Below are positions 17,380 through 38,480 of a stretch of DNA of 64,000 nucleotides, one piece after another. The DNA is from Thiomicrorhabdus sp. zzn3 (GTDB lineage Bacteria > Pseudomonadota > Gammaproteobacteria > Thiomicrospirales > Thiomicrospiraceae). The stretch covers positions 62,001 to 126,000 of the forward strand of contig NZ_JARUQS010000001.1 of NCBI RefSeq assembly GCF_029767755.1, written 5' to 3'. The position numbers and the translations under genes were made by a program. The notes beneath the pieces are model-generated. The model did no database searches. It saw only the letters and a list, made by a program, of their open reading frames with translations, and was not told where the DNA came from. The number at the start of each line of letters is the position of its first letter. Position 1 is the stretch's first letter.

Positions 17380-17446
17380 TAATAATCCCCCTTGAATTTA
17401 AATGTTAAGATGGCGGTGCACTGATTTTCTTTTAGGGGGAGAGATC

Positions 17447-18541
17447 ATGAAAAAAAGCCTGTTAATGCTCGCTTTGTCATCTGTTTTTGCAGCGTCCGCT
17501 GTATCGGCTTCGACGGCCAATGAGGATCCTTATGTTGCCGGTTTTGAGGCTTATGCCAAAGAACTCGGCAGTTACAGCGTGACGCTGGAAGAGTCTGTAG
17601 AAACCTACGCTAAAGATGTTAGCCAGACGGAGAAGAAAGCCGGATATATCGGTAAGGTGTTGCCAATCCCGCAAGCCCAAGAGGTCACCGACGGTGTCTA
17701 CACCGTGGTCGGAAGCATGATTTGGCACAATCCTGCCAATTTCGGCCTCAACAATAATCTGTCGTTTATTGTTTTTGAAAACGGCGTCTTTGTGTTTAAT
17801 GCGGGAGCCAATCCGGCTCTGGCATACAGCTTGCATCAGCAAATTAAACAGGTTACCAACAAGCCGGTTAAGTGGGTCGCAGTGGAAAATAATCAGGGGC
17901 ACGCCTATTTAGGCGCGAGCTACTGGGTGGATGTGGGGGTTAGAAACCTTTATTCCAGTTCGATGGCCAACCAGCAGTTTAATGACGCCTTTGACTTCAT
18001 TAAGGATGAGTGGGGAACCCGGGTCAGTAAGGCTTTGACCAATTCAGCTCGCAATGTGTCTGACAAATTCACCACCTTCGATGGTGAAATGCAGGTTGAT
18101 GTCGGTGGTGGCGAAGTGGTGATTCTCAAGGATTTCGGTCCGGGGCATACTCCGGCGTCCACCAGTATGTACATTCCATCGCGCAAAGTGCTGTTGACCG
18201 GTGATCTCGGGTTTAATGAGCGTATGCCGGTGTTCTTTAACTATACCGATTCGTTTGCCTGGGAAGGTTCCTATAAAAATATGATGGAGAACATTCCGGC
18301 CGATACCTTCGTGATTCCAGGGCACGGCACGCCGGCGGATATGGCGACGATTAAGCGTCAGACGTATGATTATCTGGTGTATCTGCATCAGGCGGTACAG
18401 AAAGTGGTGGATGCTGGCGGCAATGGTGAGGAGGCTGAGCAGGTGGATCAATCGATGTATAAAGATCGTCCGGTGTTTGATCAGGCGGCGAAGAATAACG
18501 CACGGCATGTCTACAACGAAATCACCGGCGGTGATTTTTAA
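17447..18541 (+). CDS. Exported metallo-beta-lactamase-fold protein
   Basis: 364 aa with a signal peptide (MKKSLLMLALSSVFAASAVSA, cleavage near residue 21). The fold is recognised from GPGHTPASTSMYI, LLTGDLGF and VIPGHGTPAD, which supply the third His, the Asp and the last His of the family. The first motif, normally HxHxDH, reads NNQGHAYLG, so only one of three His/Asp ligands is kept there and a standard two-zinc centre is doubtful. Function unknown; periplasmic location inferred. A strong AGGGGGAGAG site precedes the ATG at 17447. The hairpin repeat array at 18572 follows its stop. Confidence 0.82.
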   Translation: MKKSLLMLALSSVFAASAVSASTANEDPYVAGFEAYAKELGSYSVTLEESVETYAKDVSQTEKKAGYIGKVLPIPQAQEVTDGVYTVVGSMIWHNPANFGLNNNLSFIVFENGVFVFNAGANPALAYSLHQQIKQVTNKPVKWVAVENNQGHAYLGASYWVDVGVRNLYSSSMANQQFNDAFDFIKDEWGTRVSKALTNSARNVSDKFTTFDGEMQVDVGGGEVVILKDFGPGHTPASTSMYIPSRKVLLTGDLGFNERMPVFFNYTDSFAWEGSYKNMMENIPADTFVIPGHGTPADMATIKRQTYDYLVYLHQAVQKVVDAGGNGEEAEQVDQSMYKDRPVFDQAAKNNARHVYNEITGGDF

Positions 18542-18571
18542 TTTGCGGTAAATTTTGAGCATTTCTGTGTT

Positions 18572-18815
18572 GGAGCCGAACTTATTGAGTGTTACTCAAC
18601 TTCGTTCGTCTCCGCCTTGAACTGCACTAAAAATTTCCACGCAAATTAGATCGTGTCTGATTTCGTTGTTAAACAGACGCTCATTTAGTGTTACTAAACT
18701 TCGCGTCTGTTTGCCTAGAAATCCCCCAAAATCATCTCCCAAATCGTTCATACATTTTGAGCGGCTTCTTTGTTGAAAAACGGCTCATTTGGTTTTACCA
18801 AACTTCGCTGCCTTT
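18572..18815. repeat. Three tandem structured repeat units
   Basis: Three units start at 18572, 18671 and 18775 (period ~100 bp). Each has a 10-bp outer stem, a 3/4-base internal loop (T[TC]A opposite CTTC), a 6-bp inner stem and a 3-base loop. Inner stems are TTGAGT/ACTCAA (18585-18599), TTTAGT/ACTAAA (18684-18698) and TTTGGT/ACCAAA (18788-18802). The outer stem of copy 2 is perfect, copy 1 has one mismatch, copy 3 has two mismatches and one wobble pair. Base changes compensate across both stems, so the fold is conserved and not just the sequence. It occupies most of the 328-bp gap between convergent genes. I do not recognise the family. Confidence 0.8.
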
Positions 18816-18869
18816 CGCCTTGAAGAGCCTCAAAATAATCTCTCAAATCTGTTTTCAAACAGGAGTCGC

Positions 18870-19832
18870 TTATTTCATCGGATCCATCAGGTTGGGATCG
18901 TCGATATAGCCGTTCTCCACGCCTTTGGTGACGATGGCGACGGCATCGTGCGGGTGTAGGCTTTCCAGGTGGTTAACGCGTACCCAGTAGTCCAGATATT
19001 CCGGGTTCTGTTCCAGTTTGTTCTGCAGGCGACGCCCGGCGTCTTCACAGAACATCAGGTTGGAGGCGTTCAAACGCGCAAATTCCTGTTCGTCTTCACG
19101 CTTAACAGTCGCCTGCACCGGTGTTTGCAGCGCGTCTTCAATCTGGTTGATCAGATCGGAAATTTGCAGATGATCGCTCTCTTGAACTTTGACTTTGACC
19201 TGAGCGTAAGAGCGCTGGCTGTGCGGTGTGGCATTAATCCCTTCCGGCGTGCCCAACCAGTCTACCACCGTTTGGTAGTCCAGTTCCTTCCCGGCAAATT
19301 GGGCTTCAAACGCTTCCTGAATCAGTTGGCGCGACAGGGCCGCCGAACATGGACAGGTAGAGGAGTAAGGGACTTCAATCGACAGCTCGCATTCAAATGT
19401 ACCATTGAGCAGTTCACCTCGTAACGTAGCAGGATAGTGCTTCCAGCCACTGTTATCGCTTTTAAGCGATTTACGGCGCTCATAGTAATCGAACTTGAAT
19501 TCAACAAAAGCGTGGGTGCTTAACCCCTGATGCGATTCAATGAATTTCTCCAGAATCGCGCGTACGCTTTTTGGTGTCAAAGCCTTTTCAGTCGCCATCT
19601 GGTCCAGTAACAGGTAAAGGCGGGACATGTGAATCCCTTTGCTCTGCGGGTCAATCAGATTGACATACGCCTGAGCTTGAGAGGAGACGCGAATGTCGAT
19701 GGCTTTCGAACCATCGGATTGAGCTTGTTTAACTAAAATGGGGAGTTCGATTCCACTCATTCCAACCCAGTTCAGTTTTCCGCTAGGGCCAAAATGCGGT
19801 TGGCATGCGATATCGGGCATGTGCTTGGTCAT
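18870..19832 (-). CDS. folE2: GTP cyclohydrolase I, type IB
   Basis: Converts GTP to dihydroneopterin triphosphate, the first step of folate and pterin synthesis. The 320-aa protein matches FolE2: SRLYLLLDQ, FEFKFDYYERRKS-type segment, the catalytic Cys region PYSSTCPCSAALSRQLI, HSQRSYAQVKV, and the Glu-rich FCEDAGRR. FolE2 works with several metals and often replaces zinc-dependent FolE. It lies 200 bp downstream of a COG0523 GTPase gene, a pairing often seen in zinc-limitation regulons, but I found no convincing Zur-like palindrome in the 19833-20033 gap. It may also feed pterin to the photolyase cofactor. Confidence 0.94.
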   Translation of the reverse strand: MTKHMPDIACQPHFGPSGKLNWVGMSGIELPILVKQAQSDGSKAIDIRVSSQAQAYVNLIDPQSKGIHMSRLYLLLDQMATEKALTPKSVRAILEKFIESHQGLSTHAFVEFKFDYYERRKSLKSDNSGWKHYPATLRGELLNGTFECELSIEVPYSSTCPCSAALSRQLIQEAFEAQFAGKELDYQTVVDWLGTPEGINATPHSQRSYAQVKVKVQESDHLQISDLINQIEDALQTPVQATVKREDEQEFARLNASNLMFCEDAGRRLQNKLEQNPEYLDYWVRVNHLESLHPHDAVAIVTKGVENGYIDDPNLMDPMK

Positions 19833-38403: not shown

Positions 38404-38480
38404 TGGCGCGCCCGAGAAGATTCGAACTCCCGACACCAGCCTCCGGAGGGCTGTGCTCTATCCAGCTGAGCTACGGGCGC
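38404..38480 (-). tRNA. tRNA-Arg (anticodon CCG)
   Basis: The minus strand gives a full cloverleaf: acceptor GCGCCCG/CGGGCGC, D arm GCTCAGCTGGATAGAGC, anticodon loop CTCCGGA with anticodon CCG, T loop TTCGAAT. Discriminator G and an encoded CCA occupy 38404-38407. It reads CGG arginine codons. Confidence 0.97.

Follow-up and report, generated by a model that had tools for sequence, protein, structure and literature searches.

Between two convergent genes in a 64,000-nucleotide stretch of the Thiomicrorhabdus sp. zzn3 genome (the window) lies a gap filled by repeated hairpins, and the locus raises the question of what kind of element these are and what keeps their structure intact. The original prediction placed three tandem two-stem hairpins at 18572 to 18815; they are present in the gap, and the fold described for them (10 pairs, then a short internal loop and 6 inner pairs closed by a 3-base loop) was confirmed, while the inner-stem compensations GAGT/ACTC, TAGT/ACTA, and TGGT/ACCA proved correct on rereading the sequence. 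The predicted repeat of ~100 bp was likewise found, but a further, outer stem and a second conserved loop had been missed, and the full unit measures about 100 to 110 bp. The features of the locus are listed below, where strand A is the minus strand of the window, strand S is the plus strand, and unit cores were set by covariance-model match.

17402 to 18541, plus strand: upstream gene, metallo-beta-lactamase fold protein (PF00753, E = 1e-6)
18542 to 18869: gap holding three head-to-tail units
18539 to 18648, minus strand: unit 1, core 18561 to 18623
18539 to 18540 and 18647 to 18648: TA bounds of unit 1, the first belonging to the TAA stop codon of the upstream gene
18541 to 18547 and 18640 to 18646: terminal arms of unit 1, ATTTGCG and CGCAAAT
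18649 to 18746, minus strand: unit 2, core 18660 to 18722, outer limits by eye
18751 to 18849, minus strand: unit 3, core 18764 to 18826, outer limits by eye
18870 to 19832, minus strand: convergent gene folE2, GTP cyclohydrolase (PF02649, E = 1.2e-73)

Read along strand A, each unit consists of an outer stem, a CAAGGC/CAACRCAGA internal loop, a variable 10-pair middle stem, a GAAG/TGA internal loop, and an inner stem of 6 pairs capped by a 3-base loop, so that the strand reads CAAGGCG...GAAG(hairpin)TGAG...CAACGCAGA. The original prediction had read the plus strand and missed the outer stem and the second conserved internal loop (CAAGGC/CAACRCAGA) of the minus strand, as well as the better folding of that strand and the start of unit 1 inside the stop codon of the upstream gene. 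All three units are better folded on A than on S, with z-scores against dinucleotide shuffles of −2.6, −5.8, and −2.9 for units 1 to 3 on the minus strand and −2.0, −5.4, and −2.8 on the plus strand. In an alignment of 15 units from the window and congeners (A2), the middle stem is fully Watson-Crick in unit 2 (10/10) and nearly so in unit 1 (9/10), and in unit 3 it comprises seven Watson-Crick pairs, two G.T, and one A.C. The array lies in sense orientation 3′ of folE2, and mRNA of the upstream gene would carry its plus strand, the weaker folder. No Rfam family matched within the gap at gathering score, and with E values up to 1 the only match (E = 0.95) fell within the upstream gene. A tRNA gene at 38407 to 38480 (minus strand) was the sole Rfam match of the window at gathering score. 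A plasmid or phage origin was rejected, as blastn of the gap against both returned nothing at an E value of ≤0.01; a loop pattern matched two stretches in viral contigs.

Maintenance of the structure, as originally claimed, is borne out by covariation in many more copies and at single orthologous sites. The covariance search proposed along with that claim was run, and covariation came out far above controls rather than at their level. In A2, from which covariance model R1 was built, 90.4% of pair cells were paired, compared with 70.1% (SD, 1.6) in shuffles, and the covariation score was 0.526, compared with 0.167 (SD, 0.021); none of 500 shuffles reached either the score or the pairing. Cells in which both bases had changed numbered 66 versus 22.5 in shuffles, and sliding the structure along the alignment left 33 to 41% of cells paired. 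At the site following ilvC, represented by one unit per species in 22 species, 97.9% of cells were paired (77.7% in shuffles; SD, 1.4), with 80 double-changed cells versus 24.2 in shuffles and none of 500 shuffles as high. The array's own site gave the same picture in 21 units from 12 genomes (20 units from folE2 loci and one at the same upstream gene in genome G044), with 92.1% of cells paired and 99 double-changed cells versus 29.8 in shuffles, again with none of 500 as high. Alignment A6 was made without the partial unit of G004 and without the G042 and G019 copies at the same gene. The internal loops (CAAGGC/CAACRCAGA and a tandem G.A loop) are conserved, while the stems vary yet stay paired. 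Against this covariation, shuffle tested in A2, at the ilvC site, and at the array's own site, and against model matches across the genus, the small copy number in the window is all that speaks for chance hairpins or decayed coding sequence, an explanation to which we give practically no credence. Decayed coding sequence in particular was rejected, as pairing and loops are kept while the stem letters change.

The units are widespread in the genus and occur well beyond it. R1 matched 31 of 32 genus genomes, including the window's own, at an E value of ≤0.01. Nine places in the window's genome were found in this way, whereas blastn of the same genome returned the array locus as its only significant match; sequence search alone is therefore misleading here. 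In the class, R1 matched 34 of 275 genomes at an E value of ≤1e-5 (two of the 34 being from this genus), and a widened model, R2, matched 101 of 397 phylum genomes, own included, many of them in a single family (f195) that we take to be putative Zetaproteobacteria. A strict pattern of the loops gave 71 stretches in named genomes, including Thiodiazotropha, Sedimenticola, Psychromonas, Pseudomonas, Thiobacillus, and Zetaproteobacteria; one match (L184:7073-7125) comes from a record whose title names an actinobacterium, Catelliglobosispora koreensis. Among 49 loci from genomes matched by R1 or R2, 27 had two opposed cores about 90 to 130 bp apart and 22 had one, and the two-core elements end, by eye, in TA and long inverted repeats.

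Within the genus, particular genes are occupied repeatedly. The 3′ side of ilvC has a strong unit match in 22 of the 31 genomes that have the gene (own included) and a weak one (E = 0.0038) in one more, and the unit sits, by eye, between the stop codon and the intrinsic terminator. Units lie within 1 kb downstream of folE2 at 12 of 30 loci, of which three (L102, L112, and L119) show <350 nt of the downstream side. At four ilvC loci (L267, L270, L268, and L273, in G021, G042, G014, and G008), we also saw a tandem duplication with a period of about 190 to 203 bp in three to four copies, which appears to span both the unit and the intrinsic terminator. The short palindrome ACCAGGCCTGGT is found repeatedly just past terminators in several congeners (L099 and L104 to L108; ilvC loci L268 to L270, L272, and L283).

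Which strand carries the maintained fold can be read from imperfect pairs. A Watson-Crick pair that changes to G.T on one strand becomes A.C on the other, so the ratio of the two shows whose fold is kept. In the middle stem, G.T:A.C on strand A was 46:17 (82 distinct rows of 96), 21:0 at the ilvC site, and 19:5 at the array's own site, counts that are not phylogenetically independent. R1 and R2 are RNA models with a G-U prior and could favor G.T copies; model-free counts agree, with 41:10 in 56 units that loop motifs identified independently of a covariance model, where composition alone, with partner arms shuffled, favors G.T over A.C at 0.155:0.104. The MITE types found by loop pattern gave 13:2 in 30 distinct arm pairs out of the 71 matched stretches, with 97 of 242 middle-stem cells being neither Watson-Crick, G.T, nor A.C, and mostly G.A. 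The bias is limited to the middle stem: the inner stem is unbiased at 8:8 (82 rows) and 13:17 (132 distinct of 146 units; summed columns), and the outermost modelled pair is at 4:4 (132 distinct of 146 units).

Predicted RNA energies, compared for 132 of 146 genus units, were lower for A than for S in 113 units (mean, −6.34 kcal/mol; flank windows, +3.77) and lower for S in 18; windows 500 nt away went the opposite way (72 versus 215 of 289). In the MITE types, A folded lower than S in 38 of 46. Next to the loop, ilvC units mostly have a G-C pair, units at the array's site G.T, and others G-C or A-T, which leaves GA(A/C)/GA on A, a tandem G.A loop; on S this would be a pyrimidine loop. With respect to replication-fork polarity, the few placements read by eye in two closed genomes included both polarities.

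The orientation of units relative to genes is nearly invariant in the genus. The genus sample (A4) holds 146 of the 337 matches summed over the genus genomes; they come from 96 fetched loci and are for the most part the top-scoring ones. Between co-directional genes, as judged by simple ORF calling, strand A was antisense in 82 units and sense in 2; 56 units were convergent and 3 divergent in placement, with 143 of the 146 placed. Of the 146 units, 90 had a long-ORF stop 0 to 80 nt upstream on S, and 14 had one on A. Stops at the 90 stop-proximal units were TAA (66), TAG (15), and TGA (9), so that 81 begin with TA; the unit started 18 to 26 nt past the stop in 67 of them, and, judged by eye, the outer stem has the stop codon at its base. 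Unit 1 has TA at both ends, its left TA being that of the stop codon. The right end was TA in 13 of 42 testable sites, with any other dinucleotide at ≤3 and TA absent in 29; 39 of 81 sites had no clear right arm and were left out of this test. In rRNA operons, a unit sits 9 to 10 nt after tRNA-Ile and before tRNA-Ala, with A antisense, at 10 of 10 loci examined in six genomes (the window's own, G292, G655, G448, G491, and G529), a description rather than a sampled rate, since loci were chosen because their sequence showed tRNA genes. The rRNA-spacer loci are as follows.

L197, contig C5, 2071 to 2131: window's genome
L073, L289, L334, L291, L335, and L330 to L333: the others

The genus rule fails elsewhere. 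The pattern-found MITE types were 20 sense, 5 antisense, 11 divergent, 10 convergent, and 25 without flanks (n = 71), and class loci were 8 sense, 6 antisense, 4 convergent, 4 divergent, and 4 without flanks (n = 26).

The original statement that the array matched no repeat family known to its author is not supported as a sign of a new kind of element. R2, built without ERIC, finds the apex of Escherichia coli ERIC (14.9 bits; E = 0.0049) on the right strand and in the right register at both loci read, in a search of 1684 bases with filters off in which the next best place scored 7.4 bits. The two conserved loops are, by eye, common to ERIC/IRU, and MITE-like elements in many other Pseudomonadota contain the core. 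The R2-ERIC alignment covers the apical core only, the outer loops being matched by eye and stem lengths differing; AAGGCG and ACGCAG arms are seen by eye in the two E. coli ERICs but are left unaligned by R2, as the middle length differs. An ERIC core used as a query was matched in 5373 of 5426 E. coli genomes; two distinct loci were read for the model match, and four other fetched regions were the ybhI locus again. Both ERICs fold better on A than on S (−47.4/−33.4 and −48.0/−38.4) and lie near stops in S orientation, with A antisense, 3 nt past the ybhI stop and 6 nt past the cusC stop, while two other E. coli ERIC loci, about 150 nt or more past the preceding stop, have the opposite orientation. 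De Gregorio in 2005 reportedly found ERIC near stop codons in one preferred orientation, and the E. coli placement fits that account.

Like ERIC, IRU, and RU-1 (MITEEc1, MITEPlu5, and MITEYpe1), the units are intergenic imperfect palindromes in the size range of about 100 to 130 bp; of the TA ends of ERIC, both are seen in unit 1, the left one at 81 of 90 stop-proximal units, and the right one at 13 of 42 testable sites. They also share with ERIC a short inner hairpin enclosed, on one strand, by a GA(A)G...TGA internal loop, and stop-codon proximity with one preferred orientation (82 versus 2 in this genus). ERIC stem sequence is conserved between copies, whereas here the stems differ between copies and mainly the loops are fixed. 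The middle part of ERIC is longer, and the units here, at about 100 to 110 bp against 127 bp for ERIC, are tandem. This genus appears to lie outside the enterics and vibrios, while a review names Enterobacteriaceae and Vibrionaceae as ERIC hosts (PMC10969869); the review also cites work on ERIC in Gammaproteobacteria (Zo 2011). One unit (L022:1504-1584) carries an additional nested hairpin at its apex and looks closer to the ERIC apex. The array is thus kin to ERIC in its fold, hence no new kind of element, but a variant with free stems, strand polarity, and a strict post-stop place in the genus. Beyond what is known of ERIC are the keeping of the middle stem on one strand and the genus-wide antisense placement after stops. 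Titles and abstract openings in the openly licensed literature yielded nothing on an ERIC-like superfamily with covariation, on such units in this genus, or on the tRNA-spacer position.

Other repeats resemble the units in part. MITE-like elements with ends such as TAGGGCCTGTTAACACT (in Thiodiazotropha, Sedimenticola, Psychromonas, Zetaproteobacteria, and others), for which a literature search found no published name, share the core loops and the fold polarity; they differ in often having two opposed cores inside long terminal repeats, in having many copies with identical scores in one genome, and in following no stop-codon rule. REPs are extragenic palindromes often found at gene 3′ ends, a likeness to the units here. 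They are, however, 20 to 40 bp long with a GTAG or CGTC tag (PMC3733652). A REP-associated transposase had been suggested, but the Y1 transposase domain (PF01797), present in 21 of 32 genus genomes, has no match in the window's own genome, and a REP/RAYT origin was rejected for that genome.

We weighed several explanations of the demonstrated fold, covariation, fixed loops, middle-stem polarity, wide spread, and placement rule in the genus. Integron attC sites lie after stop codons, are recombined as a folded bottom strand, and have variable stems, with core boxes RYYYAAC/GTTRRRY. The units resemble them in position, orientation, bottom-strand polarity, and stem variation, and an integron integrase (TIGR02249) is over the cutoff in 12 of 32 genus genomes; in the window's genome, C1:1190706-1191116 holds a C-terminal TIGR02249 fragment below the cutoff. 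Yet the core boxes flank none of 132 units, the units follow housekeeping genes and rRNA-spacer tRNAs, and no model match lies beside the two integrases fetched, so that an attC-like recombination site seems very improbable. An antisense RNA gene, with transcription of strand A starting inside the gap or past it and a functional hairpin at each site, would be expected to show the middle-stem wobble polarity and the fold energy of A that are seen. The same fold polarity in dispersed MITE types and the position of units antisense to tRNA-Ile/tRNA-Ala at 10 of 10 rRNA loci examined, an unlikely place for such a gene, count against it, as does the lack, by eye, of conserved promoter-like A-strand sequence downstream of ilvC and folE2; we consider this reading improbable.

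A stronger case can be made for a domesticated 3′ untranslated region (UTR) element, in which the S-strand mRNA hairpin would be selected for decay or 3′ end formation of the upstream gene's mRNA. Its fixed distance from the stop codon, its fixed orientation, and the repeated occupation of the same genes across many species (for ilvC, in 22 of 31 genomes, by eye between stop codon and intrinsic terminator) would all fit, and two reviews describe Yersinia ERIC at gene 3′ ends as exposing an RNase E site (PMC10969869 and PMC2229807). Distances between units also track those between the neighboring ilvC genes (Mantel r = 0.277; 3 of 5000 permutations as high), which indicates that vertical retention contributes and makes selection at resident sites possible. 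However, near-identical units stand beside diverged ilvC genes: units of G020 and G013 are 6% apart, with a 20% difference between their ilvC genes, and those of G019 and G004 are 8% apart, with a 21% difference between the genes. Units thus follow the gene overall while near-identical units accompany diverged genes, and both retention and replacement seem to occur. The mRNA strand, moreover, folds worse in 113 of 132 units, and its non-Watson-Crick middle-stem cells are A.C, not G.U (21:0 at ilvC). This wobble polarity disfavors RNA selection on the mRNA strand as the sole force, and we regard the 3′ UTR reading as rather unlikely.

The explanation that we prefer, and hold at about an even chance of being right, is that the array consists of three head-to-tail copies of an ERIC/IRU-type nonautonomous, TA-inserting element, whose single-stranded DNA (ssDNA) or RNA hairpin serves its own propagation and which is tolerated at gene 3′ ends. 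The element would be a TA-bounded, MITE-like imperfect palindrome, defined by a single-stranded hairpin of one polarity (A) and not by stem sequence, so that its two internal loops, of which one is a tandem G.A, would be fixed and the stems holding them could take many sequences as long as these pair. A trans-acting factor may recognize the A hairpin as single-stranded nucleic acid, whether as ssDNA or as RNA made by an active copy, and propagation would depend on this recognition. Copies would enter TA dinucleotides; where the TA is that of a TAA or TAG stop, an element beginning with A or G would rebuild the stop, which would leave the protein intact. Copies at gene 3′ ends might survive only where the transcript carries the weaker S strand, and such tolerance of the S strand in transcripts could be the cause of the orientation. 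An occupied site may see its unit replaced or duplicated by new ones, as tandem arrays and near-identical units beside diverged genes suggest, and this turnover would preserve the fold. By analogy with what is reported for Yersinia ERIC, the upstream mRNA might also be affected. The ends of ERIC resemble IS630-type transposons (PMC6267812); the IS630-type transposase domain (PF13358) has no match in the window's genome and occurs in 2 of 32 genus genomes, and no mobilizer was therefore identified for these small, probably once mobile elements.

More broadly, and tentatively, ERIC might be one branch of a superfamily across Gammaproteobacteria and Zetaproteobacteria that is defined by structure. 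Its members would have little stem sequence in common but would retain a hairpin specific to one strand, in which the tandem G.A and asymmetric loops are fixed, and a folded single strand would be the form in which the element is propagated or maintained; in some lineages it would regularly occupy stop codons and, in rRNA operons, the position immediately after tRNA-Ile, with the well-folding strand untranscribed. Conservation of a strand-specific fold with unvarying loops suggests a factor able to read a hairpin in single-stranded form and provides a defined test substrate for it, and the one-way placement after stops and tRNA-Ile makes it testable why such repeats are tolerated in transcripts in a single direction.
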